A stretch of 64,000 bases of DNA from Dryococelus australis (Eukaryota > Arthropoda > Insecta > Phasmatodea > Phasmatidae). A program made the translations under genes and the position numbers. Positions 2,990-62,666 of this stretch are shown piece after piece (the stretch's first letter is position 1; each line of letters opens with the position of its first letter). The notes under the pieces are model-generated. The model did not search any database. It was not told the DNA's origin and worked only from the letters and a program-made list of their open reading frames with translations. Where the stretch lies: contig CM057002.1 of the NCBI GenBank assembly GCA_029891345.1, positions 21,562,795-21,626,794 of the forward strand, given 5' to 3'.

Positions 2990-3835
2990 TGGCTCCTGCC
3001 AGAGAAGTTGAGGAGCCGGCCGCCATCTTAGATTCCTTAATTCGGAAAACTTCGCAAACAATTAGTAAATTTCTGCAAAAAACGTGCACAATGCCACAGT
3101 CACCATTTTTGACGGAAACTTCCTGCTCTGTCAATCTGGTCCGCCATATTGGAAACCATGCTGAGAATCAAAGTTGCGGTACTGCCTAGCAAAATGGCGG
3201 CCAATGCAGAACTTCCTGCTCTGTCAATCTGGTCCGCCATCTTGGAAGAAGCACTTCTTAGCAAAATTGTGTCTAGCAAAGAATTGTGGCCAATGCAGAA
3301 CTTCCTGCTTTGTCAAACTGGTCCATCATCTTGGAAATCGTAATTGGCTCCTGGCTGGGAATCCGGTAGCCATTTTGGATTTCCCAAATTCGCGATTTTG
3401 CAGGCCGCCATTTTTGATGACAAATTCCTGCTCTGTAAAACTGGTCCACCATCTTGGAATTCGTGCTGTCTAGAAAAATTGGTGGCACTACCTAGCAAAA
3501 TGGCTGCCAAGACTCTAGGCCACCATGCAACTGGCTGAGGAGCCGGAGAGCCGCGACCGCTACTTTGGGTGAGAACTTTCTGCTCTGTCAATCTGGTACG
3601 CCATTTTGTAAGTCGTGATATCTAGCAAAAATTGGGGCTCTACCTATTAAAAAGGCTCCAAAGGCTTTAGGCCACCTTGCTCATGGCTGAGTAGCTGGGG
3701 AGCCACGACCGTCATATTGTATGAGAACTTCCTGCTCTGTTAATCTGGTACACCATCTTGGAAGTCAAGCTGTCTAGCGAAAATGGTGGCTCTACCTAGC
3801 AAAATGGCTGCAAAGACTCTAGGCATCTGCTACAA
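2990..3835. repeat. Degenerate tandem repeat rich in CCGCCATNTTGG motifs
   Basis: Units of roughly 90 to 153 bp recur. Each contains CTTCCTGCTCTGTCAATCTG, then GGTCCGCCATCTTGGAA, then CTAGCAAAATGGC. Clear unit starts lie near 3110, 3210, 3300, 3422, 3570 and 3722, with the last three about 150 bp apart. The many short open frames on both strands here are by-products of the repeat. The GCCATNTT core resembles the binding site of YY1/Pho zinc-finger proteins (established knowledge); function here is inference. Confidence 0.75.
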
Positions 3836-8640: not shown

Positions 8641-9965
8641 TAGTAGTGAGGAAAGGATGGTTGACGGACAAGGGATTGGGGAGTAAGAGCTCAGGAGCCG
8701 CCCGGCCACCATTTTATTACATCACCGTCCACCATATTTGAACCATAACACCTTGACCTTGACCTTTGACACTTAACCTTGAGCCCAGTTACTTCTGACC
8801 CTAAAAAAATCCCAAAAAAAATTATAAAAATTATAATTTTTTTATATGAAAATGATATCAAAAGAACGTTAAAAAATGTATTGTCGAAAAAATTTATTTA
8901 AAAAAGTGTTTAATAATTCATTACGAATTTTTTTAAAATATAAAACAACTCGTCACGATATTTTTTTTTTGTCTTGTTTAAAAAATTTATGAACAAATTT
9001 TTTTAAAAATAAGTTATTAAAATCGTGAAAAAATTTATTATAAAAAAATTTCAACAAAAATCGTTAAAAAATTATCAAAAAATTGATTACGAAAAATATT
9101 GTTTTAAAATGGTTTTAAAATGTATTATTAAAATATTTATAAAAATAAGGGTTTAAAAACCTACATTACTGGTGGTCTCCCCAGTACCACGACCCGCACA
9201 TGCCTGACACCCTCACACCCACTCCCCTCATCTATATTGATTCCGCCATTTAAATTTTTATTTCATCATTTATTTATACATATCTGCATGCCACCATCTT
9301 GGTAGACTCATTCAACACCATATTGGTGTTATTTGTTTGGAAGGCCGCCATCTTAGTAGGCGACCACGATCAATGCAGGCTGCCTCCATCTTGGAAAGCA
9401 TAATTTGTTTCGAAGACCACCATATTGGTAGTTGACCGCCAGCTTTATGGGCGTCACTCATTCAGAATAATGGAAGCCAGTGACCACAATCTTTACCCCA
9501 TGACCTTGAATGACTTTGAAAACAAAAATACGATATATAATGAATAAAGTCAACAAGCATAATACAATACAGACCACCACAATATTAGATGCAGGCTACC
9601 TTGACCTTGAACCCATGACCTTGAATTACCTTGAAAACAAAAACTCGAGATAAAGTTCATAGAAGTCAACAAGTAAAATACATTACAAACTACCACCAAC
9701 ATATTAGATGCAGTCTACCGTGACATTGACCCCGTGACTTTGAATGACTTTGAAAAGAACTCGAGAAAAAAACATAAAAGTCAGCAAGCATAATAAATTA
9801 CAGACTACTACTGCCATATTAGATGCCGACAATCTTGACCTCGTGACCTTGAATGAACTTGAAAACAAAAACTTGGTAAATAATACCTAAAAGACAACAA
9901 GAATATTGCATCACTAACTACTGCAACCATATTAGATATCAGGAGTCAGTCTGGATAAATTGTCC
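8641..9965 (+). repeat. Left inverted arm of the 5.66 kb element
   Basis: This arm pairs with 13210-14301. In order it holds the terminal block, a TGACCTTGACC cluster, an AT-rich spacer (8800-9160), a block with CCGCCATCTTAG and CCATATTGG (9240-9450), and about four units of 115-120 bp (9440-9960). Each unit contains TGACCTTGAATGACTTTGAA, then CAACAAGCATAATA and ATATTAGATGCAG. Confidence 0.75.
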
Positions 9966-10879: not shown

Positions 10880-12135
10880 GTAGGGATACAATTTATTCTA
10901 TACATAATTGTGTATATTCCTAACTGATATATAAATACGTATACATATATTATTCTATAAATAATTATGTATGTTCCTATCAATAATATAAATTAACTAT
11001 ATGTTGCCATATTTGTATACACAAACCTATACATATTATTTATGTATAATGTAATTTGAAAACTATTTTATATTTACATATTTATATGCCTATTCGTAAT
11101 TATCTATAAAATAAATTGAGAACTATTTAATGTTTGCATATTTATATACCTGTGCCTACACACAATTATGTATAAAATAATTTGAAATTAGTGTTTGTGT
11201 ATATATTTATATACACATAACTATATATAATTATGCATAAAATCAATTTAAATTATTTTACTTTTACATATAATTATAACTATACCTATAAATAAATAAA
11301 TGCGTGTGGGGTGGACCCAGGGCGAGGCAAGGCCCTCCGAATGACGGGCTTTCCAGCTGGGACCCGTAGGTGCCCGTCGCCCCTGAGCATGGCATGAGGT
11401 GTGACCCTAGGATGGAGCGGTGCTGGAGTGCAATGGCGGGGAGGCGGGAGTTCCCCCAGAGGGCCCGCCGGCAAGCGGCATCGTCCAGCACGGTTCCCGC
11501 ATGCTAGGATCCGGGAGCGAACCCTTCGGGGATCGAACATGGATCGCCGTAGTGGGAGGCGAGTGCGCTGGCCACTGCGCCACCGCTGCCGCACTATACC
11601 TATACAAAATTATGAATAAAATTAATAGAAAATTATTTTTATTTGCATGCTATAAACCAATGCCTTTACATACTTATATATAACATAAATCGCTAACTAT
11701 TTTATATTAACATATTTAATACCTACGCCACTACTTAATTATGTGAAAAATAAATTGGAAATTATTTTATATTTACATATTATATACCTATGCCTATACA
11801 TAATTATGACAAAATTAATTGATGGTATTTTTATATTTTAATATTTATATAAATATGCCTATATATGATTATATAAAAAATTATTGAAAATTATGTTATA
11901 TGTACATATTTATATAATTATGCCTACACATGATTATGTAAAAAATAATTGAATATTATTTTATATGTAGATATTTATGTAGCTATGCCTACATAATTAT
12001 GTATAAAATTAATTGAAATTATTTTACAAATTTTCATACCTATGCCTATACATAATTTTGCATAAAATAAATTGAAATTATTTTCATTTACATATTTACA
12101 TAGCTATACATATAAATAATTAATTTTTCTGTCTT
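10880..12135. repeat. AT-rich tandem repeat, unit about 75 bp
   Basis: Units contain CATATTTATATACCTATGCC, then TACATAATTATGTA, then AAAATAAATTGAAAATTATT. They repeat across about 1.2 kb, interrupted by the SINE at 11291-11592. The array forms the centre of the 5.66 kb element, the position a foldback loop would occupy. It is not coding. Confidence 0.75.
11291..11592 (-). mobile_element. tRNA-derived SINE, 302 bp, with perfect 12 bp target duplication
   Basis: A GC-rich block sits in AT-rich repeats. On the minus strand it starts with a tRNA-like head: A box GGCGCAGTGGCCAGCGCACT, then B box GTTCGATCCC near 11535. It ends in a short AAAT-type tail (ATTTATTTATT on the minus strand). ACTATACCTATA lies directly on both sides (11279-11290 and 11593-11604), a clean target duplication from L1-type priming. 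All open frames in this block are incidental. Confidence 0.88.
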
Positions 12136-26689: not shown

Positions 26690-28615
26690 CCACTTAGTTA
26701 CTGCAGCCCCACATGATATATTTTATCTACTGAGCCACTGCGGCCCTACTAATGATATAGCTCTAGCCTCTCAACCACTGTGTTCGCACATGGGATCGCT
26801 CTAGGCAATGCGCCAAAGCGACCCCACTTGAGAGTGTTCTAGCCACTAAGCCACTGCGGCCCCACTTGGCAATAATCTACCCAATGGGCCTCTGTGGCCC
26901 CACATGTTATATTTATATCCGCTGAGCCACTGCGACCTCACTTGAAATCTTTCTATCCATTGAGATCGCTCTAGTCACTGAACCTCCGTGGCCCCACTTG
27001 AAATATTTCTATCTACTGGGCCACTGCGGCCCAACTTGGGATCGCTCTAACCACTGGGACACTGTGAGCCCACTTAAGAGTGCTCTAGCCACTGGGTCAC
27101 TACAGAACTACTAGTCTTTACTCTCCCACTGGAACTCTGTGGCCCAATTGGGATCGCTCCATCCACAGGGCTACTGCATCCCCAATTGGGATTGCTCTAT
27201 TCACTGGGCCACCGCAGCCCCACTTGCGACCACTCTAACCACTAGGCCACTATGGTCACACTTGAGATCTCTCTATCCACTGAGCCACTTCGGCCTCACT
27301 AGGTATCGATCTAGTACCTGAGCCTCGGTGGTCCCAATTGATATATTTCTATTCACTGAGCCACTGCGGACGCACTTGGGAGTGCTCTAGCCACTGAGCC
27401 ACTGCATCCCTACTTGGGATCGCTCTAGTCACTGGGCTTCTGTGGCCCCACTTGAGCTCTTTCTATCCACTGGCCGCTGGAGACACCTTTAGGATTTCTC
27501 TAGCCACTGAGCCACTGCGGCTCCACTTGAGAGTGCTCTAGACACTTATCCACTGTGTCCCCAAATAGAATCGCTCTAGCCACTATTGCAACTGCATCCC
27601 CACGTGTTATATTTCTATCCAATGAGTCACTATTTCCTCACTTGGGATCGCTCTAGCCACTGGACCACTATGGCTCAACTTGGGATGGCTCTAACCACTG
27701 AGCCACTGCAGCCCCACTTGGCATCGCTCTAGCCACTGGGACTCTGCATCCCCACTTGGGTTCGCTCTAGCCACTGGGCCACTGCAACACCACTGCAGCC
27801 CCATTTGAGAGTGCTCTAGCCACTGAGCCACTCCATCCCCAATTGGGATCGTCCTAGCATTGGGCCACTGTGGCCATACTTGAAATCTTTCCATTTGTTG
27901 AGCCAGTGCGGCCCCACTTGTGATCGCTCTAGCCACTGGGCCACAGTGACCCCATTTCGGATCGCTCTTGCCGCTGGACCTCTGTGGCCCCACTTCATAT
28001 ATTTTTATCCACTGAGCCACTGTGGTCCAACTAGTGAACTCTCTCTAGCTAATGAGCCACTGTGTCCCTAATTGATATATTTATATCGACTGAGCCACTG
28101 TGGCCCCACTTGATAGTGCTCTAGCCACTGAACCACTGCCTCCAACTTGGGATTACTCTAGCCATTGTGCCACTGTGTCTCCACTTGATATATTTCCATC
28201 CACTGAGCCAATGCGTCCCCACTTGATATATTTCCAACCATTGAGCCAATGCACCCCCACTTGAGAGTGCTCTAGCCACTGAGACACTGCATCCCCACTT
28301 GGTATCGCTCTAGCCATTGGACCAATGTGTCCCCACTTGGGATTGCTCTAGCCACTGAAACATTGCGGTTTCACTTGGGATCGCTCTAACCACTGGGCCA
28401 TTGTGGTCTCACTTGGCATCAATCTCCCAACTGGGCCACTGATACCCTACTTGGGATTGCTCTAGCCACTTGGCCTCTGCATCCCCACTTGTGATTGCTC
28501 TAGCCACTGGGCTACTGCGGCCCCACTTGGGATTTCCCTTGCCTTTGAGTCACTGGGGCCCCACTTAGCATTACTCTGCCCACTGCGCCTCTTTGGCCCT
28601 ACTTGATATATGCTT
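26690..28615. repeat. Minisatellite, 38 bp unit, about 50 copies
   Basis: The unit GCTCTAGCCACTGGGCCACT-GCGGCCCCACTTGGGATC recurs for about 1.9 kb with point differences. Common variants are ATATTTCTATCC in place of ATCGCTCTAGCC and GAGAGTGCTCTAG. On the minus strand each unit reads GTGGCCCAGTGGCTAGAGCG, a good tRNA A box (TRGYNNARYGG). The minus-strand frames that spell VAQWLERSQ-like repeats are products of this array, not a gene. Confidence 0.92.
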
Positions 28616-38452: not shown

Positions 38453-39430
38453 TTAAGTATGAGGCATCTTACCCTCTGGCCATTGGTCGGCGGTTTCGAT
38501 CGGTCGTATGGGCAGGCATGGCTGTTGTTGTTGTTGTCCATCCAATCTCTTTACTTTGAATCGCTGACACGTTTCGTATCTGCGCACAAACTTTCGTGTA
38601 TCTCGTGTTACACATGGCCAATAGAAATGCTCTCTGATATTTCGAACTGTCTGTTCTGGGCCCGGATGTCCCGCGGTTTGGTTCGAGTGTTCATGTGTTA
38701 GCACTGTTCTTCGTTGGTTTTCTGGCATATATAACCTCCACTTTGCCGGATCATTCACAGAGCATGTTTCTAACCGACCATCCAGCACGCACCACTGTTC
38801 TACATGCTGCGTCGCACAACTTGCCCTTTGCTCTGTTGCAATCCAACAGTTAGCTTGCACTGCCACTACCTCCCGCCACACGTCACTCACAAGTACATCT
38901 TGATTCACTGCACTAAACTGATTTACATGTAACTCGTGTAAGAGATCCGTAGCATCAGGAGGTAGGACGTAGTCCCACTTTGTATCGTCCGTAACGATCG
39001 TGCTGCCCCCGGTGTCTCGTGAGAGTTGGTCTGCCAGCTGATTTTCTTTACCGGGGACGTGCTCCGCTGCGAAGTAGTGGCTCTCAGCTTGGCACTCGGT
39101 AAGTCGATTACTTGCCGCGTGTCATCAGCGGCAAACTGGTAAATCATGGCTCCCAGCCCCTCCTGATTGGCATCCGTCTGCAGGTATAGCTGCCAGCTTG
39201 CGTCATACCATGCTAGCGAGGGACACATGCGGAAACGGTTCTTGACTTCCTGGAAAGCCTTCTCTTCCTTTTATCCCCACACAAATCTGCGCTGCGGTGA
39301 AAGGAGATCCGTTAGCAGCGCAGTTACTACAACGAAACCCTCAATAAATTCTCTCAACAATTTTGCTAGTCCAAAAGAACTTGCGTAATTGTTTGCAGCT
39401 TTTTGGTCCAGGGTAGCGTTCAATCACCTG
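38453..39430 (-). pseudogene. Ty3/gypsy pol fragment: RNase H to integrase zinc-binding domain
   Basis: Minus-strand order from 39430 down: the RT-RNase H tether (VVTALLTDLLSPQRRFVWG in a shifted frame), RNase H start (LYLQTDANQEGLGAMIY, conserved as LxTDASxxGxGAxL) and a linker. Then comes the integrase H2C2 zinc-binding domain at 38560-38750 (HEHSNQTAGHPGPEQTV, later FYWPCVTRDTRKFV and CQRFK). The remainder of integrase is missing, and frameshifts and stops separate the parts. It is a truncated copy of the same lineage as the pol at 42.5-47.7 kb. Confidence 0.85.
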
Positions 39431-46036: not shown

Positions 46037-47180
46037 CGTCAAGTACCTCATTTTCTACAATGGTCACTTTGTTGAGATGTGCTTCGTTGTGTAACAGATC
46101 TTGCATGTCAGGCGGCAAAATGACCTCACGTTCAGCATCATCGTGTATGATCACCTCCTAATTTGGAGCCTGGGACAATGTATCGGCGAGTTCATTCTCC
46201 CGCCTGGGGATGTGCTCTATGATAAAATCGTAGGCTTGCAAGAGCAATGCCCACCGGGTGTGTTTACTGCGAACCTCACGCATCGTGTGTAGCCACACTA
46301 AGCACCTGTTGTCTATGAGCAAAATAAACCTACAATACTCCAAATAAGGGCGATATTATGTGACCACCCAGATAATAGCCAAACATTCGCACTTGTTGAC
46401 GTCTTAACATATTTCGGTTTATCCTAGCTTTGCACTTGCGAAGTCTATTACTTGCTTTTCGCCATTCTCATTGTACTGGCAAATTACTCCATCCAGTTCT
46501 TCTTGACTTGCATCTGTTTGCAAGTGTAAGTGGCGTGTTGGGTCATACCTTGCTAATGCGGGGTATTCTCTGAATTTGGCCTTAATTTCTTGGAACCACT
46601 TTTGCTGCTTGCTACCCCACATGTATCTCTTATGTGGCGATAGTAAGTCTGTGAGTAGCACAGTTATTATTGCCAGAACGCACTTCAGCCCGAAGGGAAT
46701 TTCGCAGAACTGGTATCGGGTGCCGTCCGGTGCAGTAAAAGTGATTTTCTCCCTGTTTTCCTGGCGTACAGGGATCTGCCAGAATCTGCTGTGCAGGTCT
46801 AACAACATTACCTTTGCTCTGCCCAACGAACTGAGTGCATTCTTTATGCTAATGTAGGGTGTGAGCACTTTACATGATGCAGAAACACCACGTCCCATCC
46901 TTTTTCGGTGCGAGCATAATGGCTGAATTGAATCGACTCCTAGTTGGTTCAATTACTCCATAAGCCAGCATCTCTGCAATCTGTTCACGAATAATTTAGG
47001 CCTGGTGCGGAAGGCAACTACGGATACTAGAGTAAATCGGCCTTTCTTGCATAAGCGGAATTTCATGCCCGGCAGCAGTAGTTCGGCACAGCGCATCGTG
47101 TTTTGCGAATTTCCTTTTTCGCTCATCTAGCACATGCTGAAACGTGACTTGGTGCTCTACTGGAATACCGGGTTCAAATT
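46037..47180 (-). pseudogene. Ty3/gypsy reverse transcriptase-RNase H, catalytic segment deleted
   Basis: Minus strand from 47180 down: RT start (IIREQIAEMLAYGVIEPT, APKKDGTW) and the block around LLDLHSRFWQIPV and EKITFTAPDGTRYQF with IPFGLK. The sequence then jumps directly to LLTDLLSPHKRYMWG, the tether before RNase H. The YxDD-bearing palm segment is therefore absent. RNase H follows (LHLQTDASQEELDGVI, then LVWLHTMREV, IEHIPRRENELADTLS). Stops and frameshifts are present. It cannot encode an active polymerase. Confidence 0.85.
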
Positions 47181-47690
47181 CCATCAGCATTACTCTCGGC
47201 GTATTTTCTCTTGTCCTACTATCTATGTTATACACTGTTCTCTGCTCCTTTGCTCCTAAATGTATCCTTCGCTCTGCTTTCTCTGCTACAGTATTCTGCT
47301 GCGTTAGCCAGGGCAGTCCGAGCATCGCATTCTCCATTATTTCTGCTGTTATAATTGTGGTAGTTATCATCTCCAGATCAAATACTCTAACAGTCACTGT
47401 CCCTTGCCCTATTGCAGAATAACTCTGTTGACCGGTGACTAACCTAATCACATGGCTGATTGGTGTTATGTTCCATTTATTCACAAACATTTGTTGGCAA
47501 AGGATATGCGAAGTCACTGTGTCGTTTAAGGTGTGACATGGGGAGCTGTTGATGAACACGAGGATTCGTATAAACTTCGCACCACTGAAACTAACCTGGT
47601 TTGTCAGCGACTGCTGTGGTGTCAACTCCGTGCTGCTCGGCATTATAGGAGTGGAAGAAGCATCAGACCACTTCACCCCTACTGCTCGTT
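46996..47690 (-). pseudogene. Gypsy retropepsin-like protease, active site lost
   Basis: The minus-strand frame of 226 codons starts near 47676. The strand-loop expected to carry the catalytic D(T/S)G triad reads LVFINSSPCHTL, with Asn in place of Asp. The flap-side end is clear (MLGLPWLTQQNTV, equivalent to ILGxDWLxxxN). The frame then runs into the N-terminal RT linker (HEIPLMQERPIYSSIRS). The order gag-protease-RT-RNase H on one strand is that of Ty3/gypsy. Confidence 0.75.
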
Positions 47691-48830
47691 TCCCTGCTGA
47701 TGTTCATTTGAGGTGTGCTATTTGTAAAGATGGGGGTGTTCTGGCACTTACTATACCAGTGGTACATTTCTTCTTTGCAGTACAGACATGGCATTCTCTG
47801 TTGCTTCTATTTATCTCATTTCACAAAATTCATACTACCTCGCCTTGCACTTGCACTTCTGGTGTTGTCATTTCTGCGCGCACTGTGATCCTTATTTCTT
47901 GCAACTGTGAATTTGGTAGGTATAGGTCTTAATTGTTTTGTTTTGTACCGGTTCGCCGAATCGTCCAGTTCCTCTTCTGCGGCATCTTCTCTGCATTCGT
48001 GGAGCAATTGTGCACTCGTGGCCTCGCATCGTGGATGACAGGGGCATACGTTCGAGGATAACATCAGCTCATATGAACACCTCTATCCCGCTATTTAGTA
48101 ACGACACTAATGAGGTGCGATATTCTGGATCGACAGTCTCTGCTATTACATCCAGCACTTCTCTCTCTGGAAGTTCGTTGGCTGCCTGTCCGGTGGTGAA
48201 GTCTTAACTGGTATCACATGAACGCTGTGGGCATGTGACATGACGTTGTTCATTTTCTGTTCGACTGTATAGCCCAACAAATGAAATGTGCCCCCTGTGC
48301 TGTCACTTGCTCCATTATTGATTGACACTGCTGGTGTATCTCCAAGCCACATATGTTGCATTGACATTTCATGTCTCGTGTGTCCCTTCGCATCCCGTGC
48401 GGTCACGTGTGTTAATATTGCGCAGTTCTCCGAAGAACTGCTTCCAGTTGTACTCTGCAATGCCTGCATTCGAAGCGCAGTTCATTTATGGTTTCAATTT
48501 CCGTCGGATTTATACTCTCGCGACGACACCTCGCGTTGCAGTTCGCGCAGCTCAGGATCAGTGTGCCCTGGTATGCGCACAATAAATCGTTGCACCAAGT
48601 TGGTTGTTGTAAGTTCTGAGAATTTTGGAAAAATTTGCATTCGAAACTGTTTGTGTATCTGCGTCACACTCGCGGTTCTTCGCTGTGAGGTTGCTCGCAG
48701 TGTGGTTGGGTGTTTGGCTGGTCTGGCGCTTGCAACAGTGCGGACAGTGTGCAACAGTGTGGACAGATCAGCACCGGGGTGTTGTCTTCTGTCCGGCCAG
48801 ACATGTTTGTTTACTGACAAGCCCACATGC
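47691..48830 (-). pseudogene. Gypsy gag-like region with zinc knuckle
   Basis: Minus strand upstream of the protease. Near 47795-47740 the frame reads CLYCKEEMYHWYSKC, a CCHC zinc knuckle with spacing C-x2-C-x5-H-x4-C rather than the usual x4. Upstream frames at 48469-48146 and 48826-48494 are hydrophilic and could be gag, but I recognise no capsid motif. An Arg/Ser-rich stretch (47816-48064) precedes the knuckle, as is common in nucleocapsid regions. Multiple stops separate the frames. Confidence 0.55.
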
Positions 48831-55639: not shown

Positions 55640-56866
55640 GTTTGACCTTGAAGCCCGTGCCAAGAGCAAGACCTGGAAAATGCACGTGTTCACCATAAGA
55701 GATACATAGGACAATGGGTACCAGCAACAACACACCCACCAAAGAAGCTCACACGCGGACAACATTTTTACGTCTGTGAGCACAGACTGAGCAGCACAAA
55801 GAGCATCTTTTGTGCAGGGTTTGCCCCTAAGTGGAGCGAACCACATGTTGTTGTAAAAGCGCTGGGGTATACAACTTACCTCATCAAGGTCTGCAGCAGG
55901 CGCAAGGTGGTCGTACACCGCGACGACCTTTGCCTAGCCATGCATGGACCCAGCGGACATGTTCCTGAGAAAGAGGAAGGGCCCAATGGCGAAGAGCATG
56001 TAGCAGAAACGCCCAATGGCGAAGCAGAGGCAAGCTCAAGCACAAATGGGAGTGCTATTCGGCATCTTTTCCCCACTGCCACACCCGGTAGTCATACACC
56101 CATAAGGTTGGCAGGAGATGAAGAGGAGCAAGAGGAGGAGGTCACACTGTCTCAAACATATCATGACATTAACACCACATGTGCTGAAAACCGAAGTGAG
56201 CCAGACCAGAGTGTCACGACACACAGTGTAGAGACACTTCCTTCGAAAGACGTCGCACAAAGCGAGTCTGTGGGGGCAACTGCAGACCCGATCAGCCCTC
56301 AGGGAAGCTGCCCACAAGTCTTCGCTACGACGCCATCGAAGATTATGATATTGGCTGACCTTGCATCAGGGGGACCACATCAGGGGCGCAGGGGAATGTT
56401 TATCAGAAGGAGCATCAAGTCCAGCAAGGGACAGCATACCTTTCCCCTCGCCAGAAGAAGGAGCATCGAGGGGCCCGAAGAGCAGGAACAGCATCAGCAG
56501 CAGTGATGAGGAGTCGACGGTAGAGTGGGTCTCAACCCCTCTCCACAGCTCCAAGCGTTACCATCTGCATCGGCCAGTGTGCACCACTTGCGATAGGAAA
56601 CAACCCCCTTCGGCGAGAATGGGCAGCGGTATTTCACCATCAGCAGGGTCATCACCCTGGAGCATCGGCAGGCAGCAAAGCACAGCATCATCGCGGGCTT
56701 TACAACCTGAGGCCCCGCAACCAGCTGCGATCGCCAACATCCTGTTGTACCTAGAGGCATGGCAGTCCCTTGGGGGTCTGCGAGGACCAAACATTCACCA
56801 GATAGAGGGGCGTTTGACGTGTTCCGGATTTCCACGTGCCCCTTGTGGCCCTCTTCTTCCAACGTA
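55640..56866 (+). pseudogene. Ty3/gypsy integrase C-terminus and pol tail, plus strand
   Basis: Plus strand: KKLTRGQHFYVCEHRLS, then FCAGFAPKWSEPHVV, GYTTYLIKVCSRRKVVVHRD, the gypsy integrase C-terminal domain. A long acidic, Ser/Pro-rich tail with no fold follows in the frame at 55907-56506 and overlapping frames to 56867. The domain closely resembles the minus-strand copy at 43400-43600, so both derive from one lineage. Upstream pol is absent. The tail frame of about 200 codons is open but its 5' context is broken. Confidence 0.75.
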
Positions 56867-59842: not shown

Positions 59843-59880
59843 TGCATACGAATCGCTTATTTATGAAACGGCCTAAGTCA
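59843..59880 (+). repeat. Left terminal inverted repeat of the candidate transposon
   Basis: TGCATACGAATCGCTTATTT then ATGAAACGGCCTAAGTCAGT. The core TTATTTATGAAACGGCCTAAG matches the reverse complement of the right end and of two internal sites. Confidence 0.6.
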
Positions 59881-60047
59881 GTGCACTAAAAGTTGTGGTA
59901 AAAAAAAACAAAAACTTCATAATATCTGTTTCATGTTTCATACAACAAAATTAATATTTTCTCATTACTGTGTAACTAAATGTAAATACTTTGACAAGTG
60001 CATGCCTAATAATTATTTCATTTACAGTGGGGAAAAAATTGTTAAAT

Positions 60048-60349
60048 ATCACAGACTTAGGCCCTTTCACAACATTACCTTCCAATCCAACAAAAGTGAT
60101 GTAATAAAACTTTCCAATCAAACAACAGTGATATATTTAAACCAAAACTATGTTTGGTAAACATGTACAACACAGTATTAAACATTTCAAACTATTTTCT
60201 GACATAATATTGCATAACATCGCAGACTGAAGGCCTTTCACAACTTACCTTACAACCCAACGACAGTGATGTAATTAAACATACACTTTGTTTGGTAAAC
60301 ATGTACAACACTGTATTAAACATTTCACACTATTTTCCGACATAATAAT
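60048..60349 (+). repeat. Direct duplication, about 170 bp apart
   Basis: CACAGACTTAGGCCCTTTCA ... AACATGTACAACACAGTATT (60048-60200) recurs as CGCAGACTGAAGGCCTTTCA ... AACATGTACAACACTGTATT (60220-60349). It lies just downstream of the stop codon of the minus-strand gene, in its presumed 3' untranslated region. Confidence 0.8.
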
Positions 60350-60354
60350 TCTTG

Positions 60355-62260
60355 TCACAGTGGCACGGTAGCTTCGTCTGTTTCCTTAGTTGGCCACTGG
60401 ATAATCTCACCGTAGGAGTCTTTGAATTCGGCAGAAATGTAATGGAGAACCTTCTTTAAGTCAGAAATCTTGTGTGCATTAATTGGCACTTTTTGCTTAG
60501 GATATGCCTTTTGTAGAGGAATATTGGATGTTTGACGAAGCACAAAAGTATGCGGCACAAGGTCGCCAATGAATTGGGAGGCAACTACTGTGCCTTTCTT
60601 GCAGCTGTTGTACTACAACTCCATAAAAGTCGATATAGCAAAGTCTTGCTTCTGGCTCTGTGGAACTGTTTTACTCCGGCTTTCCAATTACAAGCACGTT
60701 TTTTTTTATAATGGTTGGGCCACCAAGTCTTGAAGTCCAACACATAATCAGATGTTAACATGTTGACTGTGGATTTTCCAGCAACACCTGCAGACGTAAT
60801 CAATTTACAGATTTCCATCAGTACATAAAATCTATTCATTTTTTTTTTTTAACAACACGCTTCACCAATGCAAAATCGCGATCGCAAGCAAGATACAAAT
60901 GACAACGTATCGGAAACCGATGGACAATGATGTCAAATCTGTTGGTGTCCGTAAGTGATAACAAGAATCGTATCATGAAATTGTTCTTATTTTGCCCTCC
61001 ACAAGCATCGCTGTAAAGGTGCAGTTCTTTGACACATGGAGACATGTTGTCATTTATGTATGTTAGGAGGAATCAGCATGTTTCATTTGGCCCTCTATGT
61101 GCCTACCCTTCGTGATATAAAAATAATCTGGCTTCATCTGTTTTCAAGTTATGTATAGCAAAGGGGAACACCACACTGTCATTGGTTTTGCAAATGCGTT
61201 TTTGGTTTCTTTCATAGGTTTGTAGAACTAGTTATTTTTTCTTTCGTGGACAGCCAACTCGGCCATAGTTACACGCTTAGCACAATCAATTAGGTTTGGT
61301 GTCTATCTGTGGTCTTCAAAAATGGATATTGAAATTGTCATTGAAAACCTTGTACAGAAAGAATATTTTACTTTAGAATCAGGACTTTTCTCTTTGAACA
61401 TTGTATGCATCTTCTGTACGTCCAACTATGCATCAATATATTTCAATTCTTTGGATACGTGGTAGCTTACCTTGACAGGAAATGAAGACATGTGGTCCTC
61501 GATGGCCTGAATATCACCAGCAGGTAATGACTTCCTATTGTCTTGTCTTGCTGCCCCCGCATGTCCTTCGGTGATTGTCCAAGTAGTAACAATGTCTGCA
61601 GTCTCCTTACTCTCTTGAAAGATACCCCATATGATTGAATGGATTATTTCTGCCACACTTTCACTCTTCGTTCTTGAATCATTACATGATGTTTGAAGAG
61701 CGATGATCTTTTTCCAAACTCGCCACCCTTCCTTGGTCGGCGATGTTTAACTGGCACGGCTTCAAGCAACCCTTGAAGAAATATGTCTTGCTCATTCTTG
61801 CTTGAAAATGAATGTATAGCATCCAATAATCTCCCTTTCTGTTCAAAGCCAATCGTTTCATAGCATTTTCTGGCACATCTAAAGCAAAAATAAATTATTC
61901 ATTTCATGAGTCGTGAGAGCCATTTTAGACATTTCCTGTCTAGTAATCTACTTTATTACTAAATACATTAGTTTTCAATTACAATGTATTTAACAATACA
62001 TTATGCCACACATATTTTTACTACACAGAATGCATTGTGTCTACAAGAGTGAAATTAGAAAGCTGTACGAAACCGCATCTTAAAAGAATAACGTGAAGTA
62101 TCAGGTTACCTGCATGACTCGGTAGTAGTTTTAGGTTTCACAACATTCCCTTTGTAGTTGATATACTCCTTCCATTGCAGACGAGCTCTTTTAATTCGTT
62201 CACATTTATATTCCTCCACATTTCGCACTCTGTGTTTACATTTTTTTACTATGGTTAGGC
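60355..62260 (-). pseudogene. YSDxCGGQNKN-family protein (DUF7869-like), candidate transposase
   Basis: Minus strand. Exon 1 (to 62110; basic, RVRNVEEYKCERIKRARLQW and onward to TTTESC) ends at a CAG/GTAACC donor. The intron is 231 bp, and exon 2 starts at 61878 after TTTTTGCTTTAG. The phases join to give a Cys-rich SCRCARKC block. Then come FSSKNEQDIFLQGLLEAVPV, FKHHVMIQERRVKV, a stop near 61635, GVSFKRVRRLQTLLLLG, an AGDIQAIEDHMSSFPVKVSY block and AKRVTMAELAVHERK. The core HLYSDACGGQNKNNF follows at about 61020-60975, then CDRDFALVKR, DFKTWWPNHYKK, and a C-terminus VPINAHKISDLKKVLHYI ending at 60355. This order is that of a widespread metazoan uncharacterised family (DUF7869 in Pfam, from memory). 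Several stops and frameshifts make it inactive. Confidence 0.75.
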
Positions 62261-62480
62261 TCGGTTCCCACACAAGTCGCTTCACTCACTATTTCGCTAA
62301 TTTTCTACACAACAAACCATAAGCCACTAGGAAAAAGTACACAACAAAACAAATGAGCACCGAATATACTAGCATGCAACACGATATGACACTACTAAGG
62401 AGGTAGGAAGAGGATACTGGCTTTTTGTTTCCTCTTTGTTGCCAGCTGCAACCTTACAGTTATGGAAGGACATAATTCCA

Positions 62481-62666
62481 CTGACTAATGCCTTTTCATA
62501 ACTACACGAGATTTACTGAAAGTCAGTAAACCTACTTCCTTGCATCAGACTAGTGCCTTTTCATAACCAAACGATGCGTCTACGCCCAAAGACCAACATC
62601 CTGTCTGTAATTCATTTATTAGAAAGAAGTTTACTTGTGCCCTTTCGTAAATAAGCGATTTCGCAT
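62481..62666 (-). repeat. Subterminal repeats and right terminal inverted repeat
   Basis: On the minus strand three related 30-35 bp sites occur: 62666-62637 (CGCTTATTTACGAAAGGGCA), 62575-62549 (TCGTTTGGTTATGAAAAGGC, then ACTAGTC) and 62509-62481 (CTCGTGTAGTTATGAAAAGG, then CATTAGTCAG). The left end reads CGCTTATTTATGAAACGGCC then TAAGTCAG. Repeated terminal and subterminal sites are typical transposase-binding sites (established knowledge); binding here is inference. Confidence 0.6.

Follow-up and report, generated by a model that had tools for sequence, protein, structure and literature searches.

The Sola superfamily is said to have been founded in a 2009 paper by Bao and colleagues. In DDE/D enzymes the elements follow an RNase H-like order and the catalytic residues lie at three usual places, the second catalytic Asp sitting just past the fourth core strand. 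In piggyBac and Kolobok, the target duplication is TTAA. Mariner elements duplicate TA, and Sola elements are described as encoding a DDD transposase, producing 4-bp target duplications and measuring mostly 2-9 kb (PMC10741241). For amoeba families of Sola2, a published account gives AT-rich duplications of the form AWWT, including ATAT, AAAT and ATTT (PMC3627910). Ginger elements are characterized by TGTNR termini and by a DDE transposase with Glu as the third residue, and Ginger1 is stated to have CCGG or CCGT as its targets (PMC2836005).

Insect gene sets hold DUF7869 genes that are filed as uncharacterised proteins, and the Pfam entry (PF25273) gives no function. No paper on DUF7869 or CGGQNKN was found in the open-licence PubMed Central literature, where GQNKN occurred only in papers unrelated by title; to name DUF7869 a transposase may be new. 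We report herein on a unit of 2812 bp in a 64,000-nucleotide stretch of Dryococelus australis DNA (hereafter the window). DUF7869 is very probably the transposase of a DNA transposon, of which the unit is a dead copy. This reading, which an initial annotation of the window had put forward, draws on the shared ends, target duplication and empty sites of its genomic relatives, as well as on three invariant Asp residues that fall, in a predicted fold, where catalytic ones would be expected.

Structure of the element in the window

Comparison with 13 other genomic copies placed the limits of the element at 59850..62661 (entered without strand) and identified it as a degenerate copy of family A, as defined below. 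Terminal inverted repeats of about 30 bp had been noticed in the initial annotation; the arms found here (59851-59878 and 62633-62660) are 28 nt long and 86% complementary. From the repeat listing and the copy comparison, the left terminal inverted repeat, which starts GAATCGCTTATTTATGAAA, occupies 59850..59878 on the plus strand, and the right one 62633..62661 on the minus strand. As a DNA query against its own genome, the left end matched 17 places, itself included, and in 12 of the other 16 the match starts at query positions 10-13, equivalent to window positions 59849-59852. Both ends could be defined in 9 of the 14 copies of family A, the window copy included.

The two extra motif copies that had been seen just inside the right end were recovered by direct-repeat and motif scans at 62483..62509 and 62548..62574, both on the minus strand. 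Two subterminal copies inside the left end, absent from the initial annotation, are added here, one at about 60035..60073 (inverted- and direct-repeat listing; entered as 60050..60072 from the inverted-repeat listing) and one at 60206..60244 (direct-repeat listing), again on the minus strand. With up to three mismatches, the end motif occurs four times in the window, the mean of shuffled sequences being 0.32, and only 1 of 100 shuffles reached four or more.

The unit had also been credited with a single intron-containing gene, and such a gene is present on the minus strand, in a degenerate state, split over three frames and broken by stops. Exon 1 (62110..62285; 5' end provisional) is an open reading frame whose peptide recurs in other family A copies and in families B and D, and was not found in the family C copies. 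It is followed by a GT...AG intron of 231 bp (61879..62109), counted by hand on the sequence, and by exon 2 (60355..61878), the decayed body of the putative DUF7869 transposase, which tblastn recovered as pieces in three frames, interrupted by stops and frameshifts. The piece at 60836-61072 matches Pfam DUF7869 with an E value of 1.1e-05; its 25.6 bits fall narrowly short of the 26-bit cut-off. Within exon 2, on the minus strand, YSDACGGQNKN is encoded at 60983..61015, in an open frame aligned to D345 of P0001, an intact relative; the codon of its Asp, the second candidate catalytic Asp, lies at 61007..61009, and tblastn places the codon aligned to the third candidate, D387 of P0001, at 60881..60883. 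The block that holds the first Asp fell within a loss of about 84 bp, which alignment with the family A copies places at 61171..61173 (minus strand). This block is present in all 13 other family A copies fetched, L009 and L017 among them, the first Asp itself being altered in L009 and L016, where the block was otherwise found. Judged from its sequence, the window copy is dead, and an active enzyme would not be expected from it.

Copies and families in the genome

A 78-aa piece of the protein, searched against the 3.4-Gb genome, gave 2522 candidate places, at least 150 of which scored as matches. We examined 34 copies, namely 33 fetched loci and the window copy, and 29 of them sort into four families whose inner repeats differ and whose termini are near-identical. 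Family A consists of the window copy and the 13 loci that align with it (eight of these loci with both ends), family B of L022, L029, L031, L034 and L040, family C of L024, L026 and L027, and family D of L023, L030, L032, L036, L037, L038 and L041. The remaining five (L025, L028, L033, L035 and L039), each without a partner copy, were placed in none of the four families.

The inner repeat parts read, by family, about TATGAAAnGGC, TTGAGAAAnCCCACATG, TTCAGAAACCCCCTA and TTGTAAAAAGGGACC, and the start of family B is mostly GAATCGGTCATT. The ends of other copies had been expected to resemble those of the window unit. This expectation is borne out for the outer terminus, GAATCGCTTATT or close to it, which is nearly common to all four families, but not for the motif TTATTTATGAAAnGGC, which belongs to one family. 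Each end was set, no more than 30 bp from where the BLAST match had ended, at the best match to the GAATCGCTTATT 12-mer, so that the agreement of the termini is partly a matter of selection; the 22 copies used show zero to four mismatches. The inverted-repeat arms of L030 are 30 nt long; in L024, the repeat finder listed no terminal pair as long as 14 nt, and both ends match the motif with two mismatches each.

The elements measure 2.5-3.1 kb in 22 of 23 cases, the exception being L015 with 4.1 kb. Subterminal copies of the inner repeat, mostly 80-240 bp from the ends, occur in 17 of the 18 elements scanned, compared with 0-0.35 motif matches per element in shuffled sequence, the motifs and mismatch limits having been picked by eye from the ends; the scan left out L013, L015, L017, L037 and L041 (5 of 23).

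Target duplications and empty sites

A target duplication of constant length had been proposed as a test of the copies of this element. An exact 4-bp duplication flanks 12 of the 22 usable copies, far above what mispaired flanks produce, and the window copy has none (0 of 4 positions agree). Flank repeats of 2, 3 and 5 bp were each seen once among the 22. When left and right flanks were re-paired at random, 4-bp matches averaged 3.4 with a maximum of 10, and 12 was never reached in 200,000 trials; the preference for AATT targets lifts the chance level of a 4-bp match to 13.6%. The 12 duplications are AATT (six times), ATAT, ATGT, AGTT, ATTT, AACT and AAAT, all of the form ANNT and 9 of the 12 of the form AWWT.

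The usable copies are 22 of the 23 with both ends, L017 being left out for six mismatches in its right end. L009, L014, L018, L019, L021 and L023, in which one or both ends were lost or unaligned, were dropped before the count, as were the five copies without a partner, whose ends are undefined. The exact 4-bp match is absent in 10 of the 22, among which we entered L041 as a miss, where a 5-bp match, CATTT, goes with a shifted end. The element in L016 starts with T, and its duplication can thus be read as AATT or AATTT.

Empty sites, another test proposed in the initial annotation, were obtained for insertions of families A, C and D. With the joined flanks of L016 (family A) as query, all 40 places scored cross the junction at 89-93% identity, and in the six empty sites aligned the left flank runs into the right one across a single copy of the overlap. 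The L027 insertion (family C) has 33 non-self matches, of which 30 span the junction, and the four empty sites aligned hold a single AATT, compared with two at the filled site. The corresponding figure for L038 (family D) is 9 of 34, at 71-77% identity, as unaligned search matches.

The L016 insertion (around 3719 and 6426) sits in an abundant genomic repeat, which was also met in L042-L047. Part of the right flank of L016 (TAGTTTGCTAGMCGCTG) recurs in the left flank of L020.

The DUF7869 protein and its predicted fold

When the longest open frame, 520 aa in L022, was used as query, 335 proteins were found at E <= 0.001. PF25273 is present in all of the 120 matches listed, and wherever a species is named it is an insect; one relative, P0005, is annotated in Dryococelus australis itself. 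All four proteins scored from other loci pass the PF25273 gathering cut-off of 26 bits, with 31.8-46.7 bits. The alignment A1 comprises 111 of the 120 listed proteins, the nine left out being mostly shorter. In P0001 numbering, D268, D345 and D387 are invariant in all 111, as is D120; at position 320, 107 proteins have Glu and the other 4 Asp. The Asp of YSDACGGQNKN is the second of the three, D345.

The AlphaFold model of P0001 has a mean pLDDT of 92.4. It predicts a strand at 262-269 that contains D268, strands at 289-298 and 304-310, a helix at 318-331, a strand at 339-344 followed directly by D345, a helix at 354-365, a strand at 371-375 and a helix at 385-399 that contains D387. As predicted, the order of elements is RNase H-like, and the three Asp are found where the catalytic residues of DDE/D enzymes sit. 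Both suggestions made earlier about the protein agree with this model, namely that an intact relative would adopt an RNase H fold and that the Asp of YSDACGGQNKN is a candidate catalytic residue, which here would follow the fourth core strand and occupy the second catalytic place. From their places in the predicted fold, the three Asp would lie together in one active site.

The best structural alignments of the model are with retroviral integrases, Mos1 and the transposase domain of Metnase; the rmsd is about 10-12 A in several of the leading alignments, that with Mos1 among them, since these take in more than one domain. Foldseek alone gave weak matches, with one chain at E <= 0.001 (9.6e-04, TM score 0.16), and the viral structure library likewise gave weak matches (best E value 7.5e-04). 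The TnsB and Argonaute-type Foldseek matches were not read as kin because their TM scores are 0.10-0.23. In sequence-only searches of solved structures, the window piece matched nothing, and a profile gave five marginal matches (E values 0.46 to 1).

Ahead of the putative catalytic core, P0001 residues 142, 152, 208, 211 and 238 are conserved His and Cys. Four of these, H142 (108 of 111), H152 (105 of 111), C208 (110 of 111) and C211 (110 of 111), could form an integrase-like H2C2 zinc site, to judge by their conservation. A search for long proteins also brought up P0121, a protein of 2040 aa from Callosobruchus maculatus, in which a DUF7869-like core, 46% identical over the 146-aa query region, lies within a predicted HECT-domain protein, perhaps through a fusion or an error in the gene model.

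Proposed mechanism and classification

On the transposase reading, the protein would act through a catalytic domain that is RNase H-like and carries a D-D-D triad (D268, D345 and D387 in P0001). It would bind the inner repeat of its family, both within the terminal arms and in the subterminal copies, and would cut at the conserved outer terminus. The ends would be joined to a target whose strands are cut 4 bases apart, giving a 4-bp ANNT duplication, most often AATT, and movement would be by cut-and-paste. As the outer 12 bases are nearly common to the four families and the inner repeat differs, this genome can serve to test end recognition.

The element probably belongs to the Sola superfamily, perhaps to Sola2, as judged by printed traits rather than by sequence comparison. 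It has in common with Sola a DDD arrangement (the three invariant Asp as candidate triad), a 4-bp duplication, terminal inverted repeats and a size within 2-9 kb. Of its 12 duplications, 9 fit and 3 depart from the AWWT form that is printed for amoeba families of Sola2. It is from the fit of these traits that we file the element as Sola-like, although searches of open-licence PubMed Central turned up nothing that ties DUF7869 to Sola.

It is possible, if doubtful, that the mechanism is the same and the superfamily an unnamed one, distinct from Sola. Sola was compared by description alone, and the long-protein search, where the 888-aa Sola2-type transposase of amoebae could have surfaced, yielded one insect protein and no amoeba relative among 67 candidates scored. 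Two motif patterns, run against bacterial and viral contigs, picked out 15 and 6 stretches, none of which was confirmed as kin, a search that distant relatives could escape, while Sola is printed as occurring in bacteria (PMC10741241). Tentatively, such a eukaryotic DDD superfamily might be defined by an integrase-like H2C2 region with an RNase H core of the spacing D(76)D(41)D behind it, by GAATCG ends that hardly vary, by inner binding repeats that change fast and by 4-bp ANNT targets, and the many uncharacterised CGGQNKN genes of animals would be its transposases or their relics. Against a superfamily apart from Sola, the 4-bp duplication, the three invariant Asp, the size of 2.5-3.1 kb (4.1 kb once) and the AT-rich target all fit the Sola and Sola2 traits, and Sola remains the assignment that we prefer.

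Other superfamilies fit less well. Ginger1 and Ginger2 share with the present element 4-bp duplications, an integrase-like catalytic domain and a possible H2C2 pattern upstream of it, as far as they are described in PMC2836005. Ginger is nonetheless excluded by its termini, targets and third residue: the termini here are of the GAATCG type, not TGTNR; none of the 12 duplications is CCGG or CCGT, the targets being ANNT; and position 387 is Asp, not Glu, in 111 of 111 relatives. Tc1/mariner, whose members Mos1 and Metnase are among the best structural matches, is excluded by the 4-bp length of the duplications, none of the 12 being a plain TA. piggyBac and Kolobok are excluded likewise, TTAA being found in 0 of the 12 exact duplications.

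Non-transposase genes do ride in some eukaryotic transposons, as Fanzor1 does in Sola2 elements (PMC3627910), and the DUF7869 gene might in the same way be a passenger moved by the transposase of another element. We regard this as very improbable, because the 23 elements of the four families have no other open frame longer than 155 aa and because the protein is predicted to fold like a DDE/D enzyme. The 23 elements contain 65 open frames of at least 100 aa; matches to DUF7869 proteins account for 43 of them, and none of the remaining 22 is longer than 155 aa. That the inverted repeats are there by chance and the gene belongs to an ordinary host family, as the missing target duplication of the window copy might suggest, is already refuted by the shared ends and empty sites; the many scored matches in the genome also speak against it.

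If the DUF7869 proteins are transposases, as we think, the insect gene entries that encode them would be mobile DNA or remnants of it, a function could be assigned to the Pfam entry, and repeat libraries would gain a transposase model.

Elsewhere in the window, open frames at 38453-39121 and 46419-47703 (minus strand) and at 55652-56506 (plus strand) resemble, by eye, pieces of Gypsy-type LTR retrotransposons. At 26960-28605, a 38-bp unit is repeated in tandem about 43 times, and further tandem arrays are found at 3405-3824, 9491-9873 and 11667-12102.
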